From Enterococcus faecalis 13-SD-W-01 (lineage in GTDB: Bacteria > Bacillota > Bacilli > Lactobacillales > Enterococcaceae), in contig KE351687.1 of NCBI GenBank assembly GCA_000415185.1, positions 37,635 through 81,600 on the forward strand: a stretch of DNA of 43,966 bases, given 5' to 3'. Below, piece by piece: positions 1 to 43,966 of the stretch (its first letter is position 1; each line of letters begins with the position of its first letter). The translations under genes were made by a program, and so were the position numbers. A model generated the notes under the pieces. That model saw only the letters and a program-made list of their open reading frames with translations. It was not told the DNA's origin and searched no databases.

Positions 1-277
1 CCGAAAGTCAGCTTTGTGAACACCGTTTAAAAAGAGGTTGTGAAAAAACTGTCCAGCCCCAAGCGATAAGACTCTTTTTTCAGAGAAAATAGCTTCTTAC
101 ATTTTTTTTCTGAAAAAAGCTTATCGTCGCAGGGGCTAGCTTTTGAACACCGTTTATATAGAGATGATGAAAACAATGTTCTGCTTCAAGAAATAAGGAT
201 AAAAAAGACAGAAATAACTTATCATATTTTGCCTTTTTAACTTATTTCCGCAACTTAACTTTGTGACCGCCATCTCC
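1..277. repeat. Intergenic hairpin-repeat array, left copy
   Basis: The array holds the tail of one unit (1-29, ending GAACACCGTTTA), a full unit (about 30-156) and a diverged unit (about 158-277). The full unit begins AGAGGTTGTGAAAA and ends GCTTTTGAACACCGTTTA. These ends are an imperfect inverted repeat, and CAGCCCC pairs with GGGGCT further in. Inside is a second hairpin with arms TTTTTTCAGA / TCTGAAAAAA around an AAAATAGCTTCTTACATTTT-type loop. The same unit design recurs at 6513-6900 and 43912-43966. No reading frame of interest is seen here. It is probably a MITE-like or REP-like element; the name of the family is unknown to me. Confidence 0.8.
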
Positions 278-293
278 AATAACTGGCCGAAAT

Positions 294-326
294 CCGCAAA
301 ACAGGGTTTGTTTTGCGGTTTTTTTT
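294..326 (+). terminator. Rho-independent terminator
   Basis: CCGCAAAACA and TGTTTTGCGG form a hairpin followed directly by a run of eight T on the + strand. It lies between the repeat array and tag, so it would end transcription coming from upstream of the window or through the repeats. Confidence 0.75.
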
Positions 327-404
327 GCATAGAGATAAAAGTAAAGTTTCCTTTCGTTCGTGTAAATCACTTCATTTTGATAAAATAAAGGCGAGGTGAA
401 GAAA

Positions 405-5773: not shown

Positions 5774-6430
5774 TTATAACAAAAAGCCAAGCGCATTATT
5801 TAAAATATGGATAGCCATGACAAAAACAATTGAACGGTTTGCCGTCAAATAAGCAGCCGTTAACAAAATGGCTCCTGGTGCGTAGATCAAAAAATCGATT
5901 GGCTGCTGTACATGAAAGAATGTAAACAGAAAAATAGAAAGTAGAGAAGCGAATACTAGACCAATGTATCGAGAAAGCCAGTTGATCAAAAGATGGCGGA
6001 AAATAAGTTCTTCTATGATCGGACCAAAAAAAGCAAAGACGATCAATATCAAAAATAATGGCGTTTGTTCACCTAACTGCAGCAAACCTTCTTGATTCTC
6101 TGCTTGATTTTGTACGCCTATCAAGTTCTGCATAAGAATGTCCACCAAAAGAATAAGTGCTACCCAAAAGAAAATTCCAGCAATCCGCAACCAAGTATTC
6201 TTTTTAAAATAAGAAAAGCTTTGTATGATTTCTTTCCAAAATAAAATAATTCCTATAATCGATGGTATACATAAATTGGTTGCCAGTATCAAGAAGTCTG
6301 AGTTCACTAAATCAGTACCAGTCATTACAGATAGTGCATATAGCGGAAGCAGACCTAACTGCAACCCGATGAATAAAAAATAAATAATGAGCAGGGAAAG
6401 TTCCCTTTTGTTCGTACGAATAAATCCCAA
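5774..6430 (-). CDS. CPBP-family intramembrane glutamic endopeptidase
   Basis: A membrane protein of about 218 residues with several hydrophobic segments and the CPBP (Abi/CAAX protease-like) motifs: EELIFR with Glu140-Glu141, FFH with His173, and HILNN with His208. Relatives process prenylated or bacteriocin-related substrates or give self-immunity to bacteriocins; which applies here is unknown. The open frame continues upstream into the repeat array, but the likely start is TTG at 6430, because AGGAGG (6437-6442 on the opposite strand) sits six bases before it. The extra 38 upstream codons are largely repeat-derived. The gene is a singleton, convergent with rplS. Confidence 0.82.
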   Translation of the reverse strand: MGFIRTNKRELSLLIIYFLFIGLQLGLLPLYALSVMTGTDLVNSDFLILATNLCIPSIIGIILFWKEIIQSFSYFKKNTWLRIAGIFFWVALILLVDILMQNLIGVQNQAENQEGLLQLGEQTPLFLILIVFAFFGPIIEELIFRHLLINWLSRYIGLVFASLLSIFLFTFFHVQQPIDFLIYAPGAILLTAAYLTANRSIVFVMAIHILNNALGFLL

Positions 6431-6512
6431 AACGTACCTCCTAAAATTAGTATTGGACAAGCGTCCTTTAAAAAGGTAACAATAATGGGAATCTGATTCA
6501 ATATATTTGCCT

Positions 6513-6900
6513 ATAGAGGTTGTGAAAAAGCTGCTTTGCCTCAAGCATTAAAGAAGAATCCGCTGAAATAGCTTCATATATTTTAGCGGATTTTGAGTTA
6601 ATGCCGCAGAGGCTAGCTTTTGAACACCGTTTAGATAGAGGTTGTGAGCAAAGCGTTTTGGTCTGAGCACCCAGTAGGTACTGATCAACATCGAATCACT
6701 TCGTTCTTCGTATTTCACAGCAATAAGACTATTTTACGATAGAAAATGGCTTTTCACATTTTTTATCGTAAAAGCTTATTGCCGAAGGACAGCTTGGTGA
6801 ACACCGTTTAGATAGAGGTTGTGAGCAAAGCGCTTTGACTTGAGTATTAAGACTCTTCTTAACAACAAAATAACTTTCCATGTTTTTACGTTAAAAAGAA
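6513..6900. repeat. Intergenic hairpin-repeat array, middle copy
   Basis: Three head-to-tail units: 6513-6633, 6635-6810 and a truncated one, 6812-6900. Units begin ATAGAGGTTGTGA and the complete ones end GAACACCGTTTA. Inner hairpins have different arms: AATCCGCT/AGCGGATT, TTTTACGATA/TATCGTAAAA and TTCTTAAC/GTTAAAAAGAA. Each surrounds a similar loop (AAATARCTTNNNAYATTTT-like). The second unit carries about 50 extra bases containing GAGCACCCAGTAGGTACTG, also seen at 43948. The third unit lacks its right half and runs into the 3' end of the regulator gene, whose stop codon lies in the hairpin arm. No gene is seen in 6431-6890. Confidence 0.85.
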
Positions 6901-7754
6901 CGCACTTCCGCGCCTGCATACTTTTCTTTGATATGTTCAAAATGCACTTTGTATTTATGCGCAAAATTCTCCATATCCAGCAAGTGGAAGATAGTAAAAG
7001 CATCTGTTATCTTTTTTTCTCCTTCTGTTTGCATCCCTTTAGCATAATCAAGTAATCCTTCTAAATAAAGTCCCATCGTTTTCCCAAACAAGTCGCGAAT
7101 TTCCAACATATTTTTGAATGTTTGGAGGTATGTATAACCTTCTCTTAGATAACCAGTATCGATACACATCAATACAGCGTTCATCAATATTTTACAGTAA
7201 GGAGAGTTAAAACCGTGAGATTCAGCATATAGATTTCTTTTCTTTAAAAGAACATTGACGACAACGAACAACGTCTCTATCGGCAGCTCATCCATGATAG
7301 TGATAAATACTCTTGCTTCGCGGCTGGTCCAATTCTCCAGTTCCATCAAGCGTTGGATAATCTGGTCTATATTTGTGTTAGTAGCGTTGCCGCCTAAGCG
7401 AGCAATGAATAAATCAATGATGGCTGTGAGAGTAGGATCGTTGTGTTCGCCATTTTCTTTTAAAATCGCATTTTTAGCATCAACAAGTCCTTGAATATCA
7501 CCTTTATGATAAAGTTCAGAAAGTTCAAACCATGCGCGATCGCTCAATGGTTTTTTGTACTCGTTATGGATATACATAAATTCTTCTAAACCGACATTCA
7601 GGTTTTTGATGAGTTTCTCAAATACATCGATAGTAGGGGAGCTGATATTTCTTTCGATACGACTGTAGTAACTTAAAGTAACAATGTTTTGGCAAACATC
7701 TTTTTGTTTTAACCCTTTATCTTCTCTTATTTTTTTGAGCGTTTGGCCATACAT
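6891..7754 (-). CDS. Rgg/GadR/MutR-family transcriptional regulator
   Basis: A 287-residue regulator with an N-terminal Cro/C1-type helix-turn-helix (residues about 3-60, including LKKIREDKGLKQKDVC and YYSRIERN). A long all-helical C-terminal region of about 220 residues follows, as in Rgg proteins that sense short peptides or act as stand-alone activators. ATG at 7754 is preceded by GGGAGGA; an adjacent TTG is less likely. It is divergent from the WxL cluster across a 463-bp regulatory region, making that cluster the likely target (inference). Its last codons lie in a truncated repeat hairpin that may act as terminator. No cognate peptide gene could be identified with confidence. Confidence 0.82.
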   Translation of the reverse strand: MYGQTLKKIREDKGLKQKDVCQNIVTLSYYSRIERNISSPTIDVFEKLIKNLNVGLEEFMYIHNEYKKPLSDRAWFELSELYHKGDIQGLVDAKNAILKENGEHNDPTLTAIIDLFIARLGGNATNTNIDQIIQRLMELENWTSREARVFITIMDELPIETLFVVVNVLLKKRNLYAESHGFNSPYCKILMNAVLMCIDTGYLREGYTYLQTFKNMLEIRDLFGKTMGLYLEGLLDYAKGMQTEGEKKITDAFTIFHLLDMENFAHKYKVHFEHIKEKYAGAEVRSF

Positions 7755-7834
7755 CAATAAATTCCTCCCTTCGTTTATTTTAAGTATAGCACGAGTAAAG
7801 AAAATCCAAACAAATAAAAAAATGACTTATAGTA

Positions 7835-7905
7835 CATGTTTTTTTATTTGTGTTTCTTTTTTATGTTATTCTGTAAAAATAGTTAGAATTTAGTTATAAA
7901 AAACA
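7835..7905 (+). promoter_or_regulatory. Upstream copy of duplicated WxL promoter region
   Basis: Begins CATGTTTTTTT and ends GTTATAAAAAACA. It contains ATGTTATTCTG and a promoter-like pair CTGTAA (7871-7876), 17 bases, TTATAA (7894-7899). The same order and the same 17-base spacing occur in the copy at 8022-8091. The poor -35 boxes suggest that an activator is needed. Confidence 0.55.
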
Positions 7906-8021: not shown

Positions 8022-8091
8022 CATGTTTTTTTGTGTTTTTTATACTATATGTTATTCTGAAAATACAATGAGATGTTTGTTATAAAAAACA
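8022..8091 (+). promoter_or_regulatory. Downstream copy of duplicated WxL promoter region
   Basis: Imperfect direct repeat of 7835-7905, with CTGAAA (8057-8062), 17 bases and TTATAA (8080-8085). It lies about 130 bases upstream of the first WxL gene. Between the two copies is an AT-rich stretch ending AACACCGTTTA, the same as the end of the intergenic repeats. Confidence 0.55.
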
Positions 8092-14677: not shown

Positions 14678-17600
14678 ATGACGCGCAAATTAATGTTGAT
14701 AAGTGTTCTTTTGATGTTTTTTTTAGGACAATTGCCGACAAATACAGTTGCAGATACTATAGTAAAAGCAAGTCCAAATAGGGATGAGCAGATGTTGGAT
14801 GGAATAGATTTTGATACATCAGCTACAACAGAGATACCAACGAGTAATCAGAAAGTAGATGGAAATAAAGAACTTCAAGAAATAAACGAAGAAGAAAATA
14901 ACACTAAGGAACCGGAAGAGAATAGTATAGAGCCGATTTTAACGAATGATTCTGAAACTAAAGGTATTTGGGGAACAGCAGAATGGGCATTTAATCAAGC
15001 TACAGGTGAAATGAAAATAACTAATGGAGAGCTAACTGACTATCATGAATCACTATGGCAACAAGGAAATATCTCAAGCAGCAATATAAAAAGTATTGAA
15101 TTTATTGGGATAGTAAAAGCACCGAAAAACAGTTCATTTTTATTTGAAGGACTGACAAATGTAGTGGAGATTATAGGGTTGCTAGATACAAGTGAGGTAA
15201 CATCAATCGATTATATGTTTCAGGTATGTTTTAGTTTAAAAAGAATCGATTTTTTAAAGACTTTATATGTTACTAACATCAATAGAGCCGTAGGGGTATT
15301 TTCAGCATGCTACAATTTATCAGAAATAGACTTGTCTCACTGGGAAAATATCACACTTTCAGAAAATACATTTGCAGCGTGTAATTCATTGGAAAAGTTA
15401 GTTTTAGGCTCGAATATAAGTTTTATGAGTTTCCCAGAAGTTCAATTTCAAATGCCTCGTCCGCTCTATTCAGGTAATGTGGGAATAGCGACTGGTAATT
15501 GGACGAAAATAGATGGTACTTCTAAAGGTTATTCACCAAATGATTTTATTACTAATTGGGGAACTGGCGATTTAACACCAGGAGCTTACGTTGCAGAATT
15601 AGATGGAGGTTTCAGGTGGGGGACTTCCTCGGTCATTTTCGACAGTGAGACAGGTACGTTAACAATTGATGAAGGAGAACTAGGGGAGTCAACTACGTCA
15701 CCGTGGAATCGTAAAGATATTTATGAAGTTGATATTAGAAATATCAAGAAGATTGTTTTAAAAGAGAATATCATTGCACCTCAAAATGCAGCTAACTTGT
15801 TTGTTAAAACATCAAATCTTGACATAGTGCCGTGGGGATTGAATGCGATAGAAGGATTGGAAAATCTCGATACAAGTAATGCAACAGATATGTCAGGAAT
15901 GTTTGACTTATTGGTCTCCTTGGATACATTGGATTTAAGGAGCTTTGATACAACAAATGTAACAAGCATGAGGCGGATGTTTCGAGCGACGAGGGTAAGA
16001 GAATTAAATTTAGAAAGCTTCGATACGTCAAATGTTCAATCTATGAATGAAATGTTTAGTTTAAGCAGAATCAGTCAGCTTACTTTAGGTGAAAAATTCC
16101 GATTTTTAGGTACGTCAGCAAGCTTGAGTTCTCCTTATTCTACAGAGAATGTTACTGGCCGATGGATAAAGAATGATGGTACTTCTTCAGGGTATTTACC
16201 CAATGATTTTATGAATAATTATGGAACTGGCGATTTGTCTCCAGGAACTTACATCGCGGAGATGAAAAGTTTCGATTATGATATTGTTTTACCTGAAATA
16301 ACATTAGGGAATAAATTAGCTGATTTTGATTTGAATACAATCATTACTAATGTACGATTTGATGATGAGGAATTGATCCCAGAAGAATACGAACTAAGTA
16401 TCACTAAAGAGATTGAGACAGATATAGTCGGAGAGACTGTCGGTGAAATCCAGATAGCACATAAAAGAAATGGACTGATCCAAAAAATACCTTTACACAT
16501 TCAAAAAGTGAACTGGGGAAAAGCATTACGTTTCAAAGGCTATGATAACATGTCAGTGGGAACTTTTATTTACCATCCAGAATTGAACAAAATCACGCCG
16601 CGCTGGGGGTTATATAATGCGCATCAACAAATAAATCTTCCGGAATATGGAGATAATTTTTTCTATTCTATCAAACAATTTCGCGCATCTTCTAATCAAT
16701 TTATTTTAGATTTTGAAATACCGCTGAATTCAATATCAGCTAATGGAAATGATTCTTCAGATATTTTTATGAATCAGGGAAAAGAATGGGTAACAAATAT
16801 CGGGGATGTTTTAGAAGTTAAGCATGTGCAAGCGGCAAAGGATCGTTTGACAATGATGATAGAAGAAAAAGAAAAGCCACTATCGGAGCAAACCTATTTA
16901 GAACTAACAAAAGATGGATATAGGATGTTGCAGCTGAATCAAGTCAAACCAGTAAAAACAACAATTAACATAGGAGCGACTGAAGAGGAATTAGATACAA
17001 AGATCAATGGATTTATTGATAAAACAGCAGCCCCTGATGTTGAATTAGTTGGATTTGTTTCATACCCTGATACTTCAAAACAAGGAGAGTCATCAGGAAT
17101 TATCCAAATCAAGGAAAAACTCACTACTGGTAAATATGTTTATCAAAATTATGTCGTTCTATTTAATGTGGAATCAACCATTTTAGAACTTAAAGAACTT
17201 AAAAACGCGGATTTTGATTTCGGATCGATCAAAAAGAGCAGTCATGCTCAAACGCTTGCTGCAAAAGGTGAAAGTGCACCATCGATTACGATCAGTGATT
17301 ACAGTGAATCCAATTCTTGGGAACTGCGTGTTTCGCAACCAGAAGGCCTAAAAGATGCCCAAAAGAATGAATTATCCGGAGCAGTCATTCGCCTAAAAAA
17401 TATCCAAGTTGTAGACTCCGTCCATGAAAATATCCTGCTCCCTGCAAGAAATATAGAACTTTCTTCTGTTCAGCGATCTGTTGCGCGAATGGTGGATCAT
17501 GGCGGGGAAAAAGAGACTGGATTAACTATCCTGCAAATAGGGGATAGTAAAGATCAAACACTATCCGGGATCGAAATGAGTATTCCGAGAAACACGATAA

Positions 17601-17701
17601 GCAATGCGAGTACCTATCAAACAACAATTGAATGGGAATTGACAGGTGATCCTACATTGACCGAAGCAAAGCAGATAGGAGGGCAAGATGAAGCGTCTTA
17701 A
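14678..17701 (+). CDS. Giant BspA-like (DUF285) repeat surface protein with WxL domain
   Basis: A 1007-residue secreted protein. The signal peptide is followed by an acidic low-complexity region (about residues 40-95). Two BspA-type leucine-rich blocks come next (about 100-310 and 315-530), with the diagnostic LDTSNATDMSGMF, FDTTNVTSMRRMF and FDTSNVQSMNEMF repeats. A middle beta-rich region (about 530-830) leads to a C-terminal WxL domain from about 835, with WEL in SNSWELRVSQPEG (about residue 880) and in TIEWELTGDP (about 986). BspA repeats are found in adhesins of oral and gut microbes; a binding role here is inferred. ATG follows AGAGTGGTGAG. It overlaps the LPXTG gene by 14 bases. Confidence 0.9.
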   Translation: MTRKLMLISVLLMFFLGQLPTNTVADTIVKASPNRDEQMLDGIDFDTSATTEIPTSNQKVDGNKELQEINEEENNTKEPEENSIEPILTNDSETKGIWGTAEWAFNQATGEMKITNGELTDYHESLWQQGNISSSNIKSIEFIGIVKAPKNSSFLFEGLTNVVEIIGLLDTSEVTSIDYMFQVCFSLKRIDFLKTLYVTNINRAVGVFSACYNLSEIDLSHWENITLSENTFAACNSLEKLVLGSNISFMSFPEVQFQMPRPLYSGNVGIATGNWTKIDGTSKGYSPNDFITNWGTGDLTPGAYVAELDGGFRWGTSSVIFDSETGTLTIDEGELGESTTSPWNRKDIYEVDIRNIKKIVLKENIIAPQNAANLFVKTSNLDIVPWGLNAIEGLENLDTSNATDMSGMFDLLVSLDTLDLRSFDTTNVTSMRRMFRATRVRELNLESFDTSNVQSMNEMFSLSRISQLTLGEKFRFLGTSASLSSPYSTENVTGRWIKNDGTSSGYLPNDFMNNYGTGDLSPGTYIAEMKSFDYDIVLPEITLGNKLADFDLNTIITNVRFDDEELIPEEYELSITKEIETDIVGETVGEIQIAHKRNGLIQKIPLHIQKVNWGKALRFKGYDNMSVGTFIYHPELNKITPRWGLYNAHQQINLPEYGDNFFYSIKQFRASSNQFILDFEIPLNSISANGNDSSDIFMNQGKEWVTNIGDVLEVKHVQAAKDRLTMMIEEKEKPLSEQTYLELTKDGYRMLQLNQVKPVKTTINIGATEEELDTKINGFIDKTAAPDVELVGFVSYPDTSKQGESSGIIQIKEKLTTGKYVYQNYVVLFNVESTILELKELKNADFDFGSIKKSSHAQTLAAKGESAPSITISDYSESNSWELRVSQPEGLKDAQKNELSGAVIRLKNIQVVDSVHENILLPARNIELSSVQRSVARMVDHGGEKETGLTILQIGDSKDQTLSGIEMSIPRNTISNASTYQTTIEWELTGDPTLTEAKQIGGQDEAS

Positions 17702-24718: not shown

Positions 24719-25013
24719 TATTTCCAACCTCCTTTCTTTGGAATCCAAAAATAGACTGTTTTTCAAATGTTTTATTGATACAGTACTTTTTGGATCTATG
24801 AGAGATACTTAGTTTTTTATCCTGGGAAGTTTACGAACCAGTCCAAGAAATCTTCTTGTTTTAAATGCACAAATCAATCATAACTTAAAGTGAAGAAAAA
24901 GAACACGTTGTCAGAAGAATTTTATTTAAAAGAGTTTTTGCTGAGACATTTCTCCTCCTTTTTGAAATCTTGTTGTATAGTAGAGAAAATACGGGAAACG
25001 AGGAAAGAACCAA

Positions 25014-42738: not shown

Positions 42739-42904
42739 TCTGTTCAGCTCCTTCGTTAATTTAATACATCTACTAGTGTAGCCTACTTTTTTGAAAAATG
42801 GATGAATTTTGCTTGTTATTTAAATAGAAAACGTCAAAAAAATCATTTTATAACTAGCAAAAATATTTTTTTTCGCTAAACTAAAACAGAAGGGAATGAA
42901 GAAC

Positions 42905-43909
42905 GTGGATATTTATTTAAAAAAAGCAATCATGCATATTATTGATCGGGAAACAGGTTCACCGGTCTTTTCACAAAAAGAACTAGATTTGACGAAAGAA
43001 TTCGTTCGCGATTACTTACAGAAAAAAATCCAAAAGATCTCATCAGCACAAACAAAAACAGGGACACTTGCCGCCGAAAACGGCTTTACAAAATTGATCC
43101 AAGCTTGTCAAGAAGACTTTGTTCCAGCAAGTGAGCAATTAGTCCAACGCTGGTTTGAAGTTTACCAAGAAAGCGAAGAAGCGCCTAGTGCAGATGTCTT
43201 TTTGGTGCTTTATGAAGTGGACACAGTCATGCACCTTGCTTTGCTGAAAAACAATTACCGGGAAGCTTATACTCATTTTATCGAAGCCGATGAAGAAGGG
43301 ATCGACAACAAATTGATTTTAAATCGTGCGATCTTAGGCTCGAAATCACAAAAAGCCGATGAAGCACTTGCTGTTGATCTAAATGGTCTTTCTTATGAAT
43401 TGATTGAGAAAAAATATGAGTTTTCTGGAAAAAAACAAAATTATTTTTCGGAAAGAGTGATTGAAAGTGTTCCAGCACCTTCTCTTGAAGAAAATGTCAA
43501 AGTCATCCAAAAAGTAGCAAAATCATTAGGGAAAAAATTCGAGACAGAAGAATTTGACCTGATTGCTGATTTGAAAGAAGCAGTTTATGACACGATCGAA
43601 GAAAAAGGGCGTCTGGATCATGAAATGATCGCTGAAAAAGTCTTCAAAGATAACGTAACAGCGAAACTTGCTTTCAAAGAAGAAGTCCAAGAAAAAGGAT
43701 TTGTGCCAGAAGCGGAACCTGTTAGAGAAGTCCAAGAAATCTCAGAGAAAAAATTCGGCAAACAGAAATTCAAACTTTCAAATGGAATCGAGCTGGTCGT
43801 TCCAGTCGATGTCTATCGAAACCCGGATTTGATCGAGTTCGTCAATAATCCAGATGGGACGATTTCTGTGATGATCAAGAATGTGGAAGAAGTGATGAAT
43901 CGAATTTAG
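42905..43909 (+). CDS. Nucleoid-associated protein, NA37/YejK (NdpA) family
   Basis: About 334 residues. It begins DIYLKKAIMHIIDRETGSPVF, typical of the 37-kDa nucleoid-associated family. It continues with LVLYEVDTVMHLALLKNNYREAYTHF-like strands (about residues 100-130) and ends with FKLSNGIELVVPVDVYRNPD and ISVMIKNVEEV. These are characteristic C-terminal strands of the family. E. coli YejK binds DNA and the nucleoid; the Gram-positive role is little known. GTG at 42905 fits AAGGG at 42890-42894 better (ten-base gap) than ATG at 42896, which is one base away. A repeat unit begins three bases after the stop. Confidence 0.8.
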   Translation: MDIYLKKAIMHIIDRETGSPVFSQKELDLTKEFVRDYLQKKIQKISSAQTKTGTLAAENGFTKLIQACQEDFVPASEQLVQRWFEVYQESEEAPSADVFLVLYEVDTVMHLALLKNNYREAYTHFIEADEEGIDNKLILNRAILGSKSQKADEALAVDLNGLSYELIEKKYEFSGKKQNYFSERVIESVPAPSLEENVKVIQKVAKSLGKKFETEEFDLIADLKEAVYDTIEEKGRLDHEMIAEKVFKDNVTAKLAFKEEVQEKGFVPEAEPVREVQEISEKKFGKQKFKLSNGIELVVPVDVYRNPDLIEFVNNPDGTISVMIKNVEEVMNRI

Positions 43910-43911
43910 TG

Positions 43912-43966
43912 AAAGAGGTTGTTTTCTCAGTGTTCTGCTCCGAGCACCAAGTAGGTACTGTTTGAC
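43912..43966. repeat. Intergenic hairpin-repeat unit, left part (cut by window end)
   Basis: Starts AAAGAGGTTGT directly after the stop of the NA37 gene and contains GAGCACCAAGTAGGTACTG. This sequence matches the long-form unit at 6635-6810 (GAGCACCCAGTAGGTACTG). The rest lies outside the window. Confidence 0.75.

Follow-up and report, generated by a model that had tools for sequence, protein, structure and literature searches.

The window, a stretch of 43,966 nucleotides (C93:37635-81600 in a genome of 2.93 Mb and 95 contigs, called G000 here), carries at three sites copies of a hairpin element that we regard, with a probability of about 70%, as a non-autonomous mobile element of the EFAR type, which targets terminators and is spread across the Enterococcaceae and some other families of the order. 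Comparison of close relatives shows the element standing in place of the upper part of terminator stem-loops. In G000, the arrays sit at the 3′ ends of genes, for the most part in sense orientation, and often supply the stop codon. The kind of element is already known; what deserves attention is how widely it is spread, how it settles at gene ends and how strongly its structure is conserved.

The earlier note on this DNA had placed units of the family at 1-277, 6513-6900 and 43912-43966, and all three sites were confirmed in the sequence. As it had described, the units run head to tail with one or two bases between them, their ends are imperfect inverted repeats, they hold no gene and the three sites are intergenic. 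All the features of these sites lie on the plus strand. The first site (L148) opens with the 3′ end of a unit (1..28), whose 5′ part falls in an assembly gap, the N run standing directly before the window. It continues with a complete unit of 126 nt (31..156, C93:37665-37790), a long imperfect hairpin that scored 102.3 bits with R1, a covariance model made from 33 G000 units, and with a degenerate last unit (160..276, C93:37794-37910, 46.2 bits). Just 3′ of this array, a terminator-like hairpin with a T run (293..327) was recognised by eye, and the same L148 site appears in the terminator scan. The second site consists of a complete unit of 121 nt (6513..6633, 122.8 bits), a 176-nt unit with an inserted module (6635..6810, 54.8 bits on C93:44328-44444) and a truncated third and last unit that runs from 6812 to about 6893, its right end being set by eye. 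The third site holds the 5′ part of a unit and the start of the module (43912..43966); the N gap begins just past the window, and beyond it a degenerate unit, present by its 3′ end, and a terminator-like hairpin were seen by eye. Two of the sites touch stop codons, as had been claimed: the right end of the second overlaps the stop of the minus-strand ORF 6891-7757, and the third starts 2 nt past the stop of ORF 42896-43909.

The module of the second site (ACCCAGTAGGTACTG...CACAGCA, 6669..6722, plus strand) is one of 13 copies in the G000 stretches fetched, all of this hairpin-prone type of about 54 nt (ACCAAGTAGGTACTG...CACAGCA) and all at the same internal place in their units. It is also found at that place in units L213 and L215 of a second genome, G015, and elsewhere in L211. 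This distribution suggests that the module may be a nested element or a movable building block.

When folded as RNA, the 6513-6633 unit gave a z of −7.5, with none of 200 shuffles equally stable, and the 31..156 unit a z of −4.6, while the degenerate unit (folded as 158-274) gave −1.7, which is not significant, 16 of 200 shuffles being equally stable. At the Rfam gathering score the unit copies of the window had no family match, and a scan of 6400-7000 yielded sub-threshold matches only, which were not counted as evidence. One weak sub-threshold likeness, at 6493-6596, is to the Enterococcus sRNA EF0408_EF0409 (16.6 bits for a gathering score of 440), an RNA that may itself contain an EFAR. 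A CRISPR-like or coding reading of the units was ruled out, there being no spacers and no gene. Elsewhere in the window, a PreQ1 riboswitch lies at 24803-24847 on the minus strand (Rfam RF00522, 45.7 bits). Two A/T-rich direct copies of 66 nt, 74% alike and ending GTTATAAAAAACA, stand at 7840-7905 and 8026-8091 and are possibly binding sites, and a 107-nt direct repeat (15491-15597 and 16154-16260, 77% alike) inside ORF 14678-17701 probably encodes a repeated protein domain.

BLAST with the 6513-6633 unit found at least 64 places in G000 at E <= 0.001 (40 of 87 candidates scored), and R1 found at least 134 matches (the best 150 of 2742 candidates scored), numbers that exceed chance; the family is not merely present in the one or two copies per genome that the earlier note had held to speak against it. 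At 121 nt each, these 134 units make up about 0.55% of the 2.93 Mb. They fall into 69 sites, of which 24 have one unit, 30 two, 12 three, 2 four and 1 six, all unit counts being lower bounds with N runs cutting several arrays. Unit length is mostly 120-125 nt and typically about 121, some units are lengthened by a module of about 54-56 nt, and many arrays close with a unit that is partial or degenerate.

Head-to-tail arrays with a period near 122, together with length differences between genomes, are also what a plain tandem repeat (VNTR) expanding by slippage would give. In the seven-unit array L136 (C89), two units one apart are 97% identical, which may be a sign of block duplication, and one of 44 adjacent unit pairs exceeds 90% identity (L109, 92%). 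However, the mean identity of adjacent units is 62.1% (44 pairs) and that of units across sites 64.6% (5394 pairs), as measured on the best 105 of 150 rows of the model-based alignment A2, and the 69 sites are dispersed. As adjacent units are no more alike than distant ones, the G000 arrays are mostly not plain tandem duplications of one unit. Simple slippage was rejected on these identities, and we give it almost no credence.

One unit forms one long imperfect hairpin with four helix segments. In alignment A1, which comprises 33 of 47 motif-found unit-like stretches (without N, 118-126 nt, all from BLAST-found loci), 97.1% of 1287 cells are paired, compared with 72.4% after shuffling and 41-47% for slid structures. 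Both sides have changed with pairing kept in 30 of the 39 base pairs, and the covariation score is 0.670 (0.205 shuffled, 0.093-0.164 slid). None of the five pairing and covariation measures was reached by any of 500 shuffles, which ignore the relatedness of the units, so that these shuffle counts are not a probability. The unit ends, imperfect inverted repeats finishing in TA, are part of the outer helix. Invariant unpaired positions exist too, such as G21, A32 and C93-G94 in A1 numbering, and therefore the unit is not just a palindrome that copying has held perfect.

The non-Watson-Crick pairs of the 33 units comprise 70 GU and 14 AC. With re-paired 3′ columns the GU/AC ratio has a mean of 1.28 and a largest value of 2.71 in 500, and within-pair shuffles give at most 1.73. 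Leaving out the three columns with standing GU, the count is 36 to 14, in the same direction but weaker, with a ratio inside the range of the re-pairing control (largest 2.71) and above the within-pair shuffle maximum (1.73). The wider count, on the same best 105 A2 rows in an alignment that leans to the structure, is 249 to 59. We read this as the strand as written, and not its complement, being held to the fold. Split by context, the GU:AC counts are 156:42 for sense units, 46:8 for antisense units (19 units at 10 sites) and 47:9 for the unclear class, in which one of the 11 antisense sites (L125) was left. As the lean is equally strong in antisense, the constraint seems tied to the strand of the element and not to the direction of the neighbouring gene, which argues for a role in movement over a role in the host 3′-UTR. 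Young antisense copies could, nevertheless, simply not have decayed yet.

A gene end was scored when the array starts −15 to +13 nt from the stop of a same-strand frame of at least 80 codons, after four of 73 groups had been dropped as hairpin-only or weak (L097 plus, L099 plus, L119 minus and L134 plus). Such a stop is present at 44 of the 69 G000 arrays; of 3450 points drawn at random in these stretches, 111 had one. The unit often provides the stop codon itself: the stop ends at unit position 4 in 14 sites (the TAG of NTAGAGG; TAA in one), at position 3 (TAA) in 8 and at position 13 (a TGA inside the unit) in 7, 7 of the 150 aligned matches used for these positions overlapping better ones. 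The other 25 sites have no same-strand stop at the array start, and 11 of them have an opposite-strand stop near the right end, as at 6513-6893 of the window. At L102 the array begins immediately where a tRNA-Leu gene ends (tRNA 2653-2736, unit 2477-2652, both on the minus strand).

The last residues of some proteins are read from the unit. The L113 protein of G000 ends GKIVIERL, its final residues being unit-encoded, and nine full-length orthologues (62-70% identical) end natively, for instance in GKIVLTLA or GKIILSFEK, with the nearest R1 match at least about 0.6 kb away in all nine. The L144 protein ends AEFAQVHSEKRL in G000 and, for example, AEFSQQKIKK in relatives. Downstream, a terminator-like hairpin with a T run lies within 160 nt in 33 of 69 usable groups (of the 73 before the drop; one of the 33 is a dropped group), with 2.3 expected from a base-shuffle, not dinucleotide, control. 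Each unit was also considered as a terminator by itself, and this was rejected by eye, since the 123-nt type has no T run after the inner hairpin.

In the genus, R1 matches 15 of 15 genomes, with 21 to at least 150 matches each. Under stricter filters, the family has matches in 13 of 17 genera and in 81 of 105 genomes, the other 24 having none; in the order sample R1 matches 78 of 395 genomes, in 24 of 80 genera. Outside the family are 24 matching genomes of the order, which belong to five other families and score up to 121.6 bits; at two of these loci (L238, L239) a unit is followed by a terminator-like stem-loop (by eye). The joint between two units was found in E. lactis, E. durans, E. villorum, E. 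mundtii, E. italicus and two other Enterococcus strains (27 stretches), in a search that may leave out near relatives of G000. Partial matches occur in 16 plasmid records, 14 of them from Enterococcus. Two Klebsiella plasmid records with matches, CP069367 and CP069368, may be pieces of enterococcal chromosome misfiled as plasmid. Similarly, of 93 matching phage records 87 bear the name Listeria phage (e.g. LM 4-11-1 and LM 4-14-1); the 15 records listed are unannotated and 2.4-19 kb long, and the Listeria phage records may be enterococcal chromosome filed as phage.

The gene-end position and the conserved fold would also suit a domesticated 3′-UTR RNA element, whose hairpins are kept to end, protect or tune the mRNA of the upstream gene; such roles are proposed in the literature for REPs and transcribed MITEs. 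This is the main rival of the mobile reading, and we consider it unlikely. It accounts for the 44 of 69 arrays that begin at a same-strand stop with terminators following, for the strong covariation and for the excess of GU over AC, although that lean is as strong in antisense as in sense units. Comparison between species bears on it in both directions. E. lactis and E. faecium are near relatives, and the E. lactis loci match G000 at about 73-81%, an identity that does not support E. faecium as the origin of G000. Among ten overlapping locus pairs of G000 and other enterococci (aligned pieces of at least 400 bases, read from coordinates, in a sample biased by loci having been chosen for their arrays), three have the array in the same gap and orientation despite a DNA difference of about 19-23%: for L039/L117 it stands at the same base, for L049/L108 and L052/L097 within 31-96 nt of the aligned gene. 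The other seven show no clear shared array: one is in the opposite orientation, one a gene apart, one unclear and four are without array.

Two genes show separate acquisitions at one gene end. At queA, the G000 unit is fused to the stop, the G009 array starts 12 nt past its own stop and looks like a separate event, and R1 matches none of the other 13 relatives at the locus. The L144 gene has a sense array in G000 and an antisense one in G003 and G005, with no R1 match in the other 12 relatives. The queA locus, the 24 family genomes without a match, and gains or losses between genomes 94-95% identical speak against the 3′-UTR role. Just past the stop of the L144 gene in two relatives (L257, L258), a palindromic joint of a sense start and an antisense start (AGAGGTT...AACCTCT) precedes the antisense array.

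Filled and empty sites were compared in three relatives, G006, G007 and G011; over the pieces aligned, G006 shares 94.1% identity with G007 and 94.8% with G011. In four clean pairs, with end points set by eye and good to a few bases, 160 bp stand for 26, 160 for 30, 159 for 29 and 161 for 19. The replaced 19-30 bp are the upper part of a terminator stem-loop in all four, the stem base and the T run are kept at the filled sites (the flanks themselves having diverged in the fourth pair), and the inserted elements carry their own stem-loop before the retained T run. No target duplication was present in these four pairs. These clean empty sites come from relatives with two-stem-loop elements, the window's own arrays having no close enough relative here, and the window's arrays close with a partial unit and an intact terminator, not with a split one. 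The same stretches hold at least four sites common to the genomes by coordinates, two sites where the number of units differs by one (1 against 2, 2 against 3), a unit at one of these two resembling a recombination hybrid, and three further differences too tangled to read.

The four pairs weigh on two further readings. In one, the element is, like RUP, a classical MITE that depends on an IS630-like transposon targeting TA, with the TA of the stop codon as its target. Units often follow or contain a TA at the stop, the inverted ends finish in TA, and EFAR is listed among MITEs in PMC3733652; the pairs, however, show deletion of a terminator loop without duplication, and no parent was seen in the stretches searched. 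The TA-target MITE was rejected on the four pairs, and we hold it to be highly improbable. In the other reading, terminators are converted without a transposase: hairpins with A and T runs in common exchange their upper parts through recombination or template switching. In keeping with such an exchange, a terminator is the target in all four clean pairs, the A and T runs of the stem base are kept, and no enzyme was found in the stretches searched. Against it, the kept stem at h6:172681 (AAAACAAC/GTTGTTTT) extends beyond the A and T runs, and GAGG starts three of the four insertions, which looks like a defined element end. We judge conversion somewhat less likely still than the 3′-UTR role.

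In the EFAR-type mobile element, our best explanation, the unit is a hairpin of about 121 nt formed from one strand, to which a second, terminator-like stem-loop is added in several genomes, giving about 160-170 bp. The fold of that strand, as a single-stranded DNA or RNA hairpin, would be what the moving machinery recognises, and an enzyme acting in trans would cut or copy the folded strand into another hairpin. Arrays would grow by repeated arrival and later change in length by recombination between units. The second stem-loop, or the final terminator of an array, would restore termination, and with the stop codon also restored the insertion would be tolerated by the host. A stronger version is that of a class of mobile hairpins in several families whose members swap themselves into terminators by way of a folded ssDNA or RNA intermediate specific to one strand, without target duplication or a recognisable linked transposase, the fold being kept over the sequence; this we put forward tentatively, as a possibility with the odds somewhat against it. 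If true, its mode of movement differs from that of MITEs and REPs.

Compared with MITEs, the elements have terminal inverted repeats, although imperfect, and lack target-site duplication in the four pairs of relatives. A coding transposon of which the copies are fragments was an outcome that the earlier note had set against its own reading; no such autonomous parent was recognised in the fetched stretches of five genomes by a crude motif-pair test. In these stretches, lone unit ends are paired 0.4-5 kb apart at 7 distinct places, and at 6 of them ordinary-looking genes lie between, with no transposase recognised by eye; an autonomous parent at these places was rejected. On the minus strand of L168 and L185 (G006 and G011), unit-like 5′ and 3′ ends stand 1.7 kb apart with two ordinary-looking genes on the other strand between them. 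MITEs in general are transcribed and can stabilise or destabilise mRNA (PMC3733652).

The MITE- or REP-like element moved in trans that the earlier note had suggested thus holds in outline as a small non-coding mobile element, not as a strict MITE, and the moving enzyme in trans remains putative; the filled and empty sites it had called for exist in relatives, where the four clean pairs show no target duplication. New with respect to it are the targeting of terminators, the placement at gene ends, the covariation and a spread that goes further than the enterococci. The REP/BIME elements of enterobacteria resemble the units in being many intergenic palindromes, in arrays, with a proposed enzyme in trans, but REPs are 20-40 bp long, bear a GTAG or CGTC tag and are accompanied by RAYT genes (PMC3733652). 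At about 121 nt and without a GTAG or CGTC end conserved across alignment A1, the window's units are not REPs in the strict sense.

RUP of Streptococcus pneumoniae, with 107 bp, 108 intergenic copies and inverted ends, is similar in size and position, but it targets TA and resembles the ends of IS630-Spn1 (PMC2229807). The relatives' elements, in contrast, delete a stem-loop and duplicate nothing. The E. faecium MLVA scheme of Top et al. in 2004 reportedly includes a VNTR with a repeat of about 121 bp and a variable number of units; the likeness to our units in length and variability is one of description, a lead only.

The closest known system is EFAR. It was reportedly described from E. faecalis by Venditti et al. 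in 2007 as an element mostly of 170 bp with two independent stem-loops, assembled in a variable, modular way from several sequence types, and it is said to replace most of a stem-loop of 24-37 bp while keeping parts of the stem at its ends. G015 (a single contig of 2.9 Mb, alone in its genus among the 105 family genomes) has 24 R1 matches, found with a model built solely from G000 units. A 5′ end could be found at 22 of these 24 loci and both ends at 19, of which 14 are exactly 170 bp and the remaining five 116 (two), 223 (two) and 228 bp. The 170-bp element consists of a unit (GAGGTCGGG...CCGTTTA) and a second stem-loop ending mostly in CACGCTC or AGGCTC, followed by host flank. The flanks are complementary at a mean of 5.47 of 8 positions (4.39, sd 0.23, in shuffles; none of 2000 as high), and these complementary flanks are retained target stems.

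The likeness to EFAR thus lies in an intergenic palindromic family, in the G015 elements with their 170 bp, two stem-loops and complementary flanks, in the G006 and G007 elements of 159-161 bp, near the reported EFAR size, and in a stem-loop target of which stem parts are kept in four of four clean pairs with 19-30 bp lost. The differences are that G000 has mostly arrays of single hairpins of 120-125 nt, the other stem-loop occurring only as the final terminator, that its arm sequences differ and its units are joined to stop codons, and that the R1 family reaches other genera and families. The supposition of the earlier note that the repeat may already have a name in enterococci was right in outline, as it belongs with the 'EFAR elements in Enterococci' listed among MITEs in PMC3733652. 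In the open literature, with limited coverage, no paper on this family outside E. faecalis was recognised beyond that phrase. Efa-1 of E. faecalis is given in PMC2267715 with a size of 163, 65 (18) copies and two adjacent stem-loops.

From the reported description of EFAR, and not from its published sequence, we file the window's arrays as a probable tandem, one-hairpin variant of the EFAR kind. If they are one family with EFAR, then it is a gene-end element in many enterococci and some other Lactobacillales, which supplies stop codons, alters protein C-termini and, in relatives, takes the place of terminators. The strong covariation within one genome offers a direct test of how such a structure-defined element moves and whether its RNA matters.
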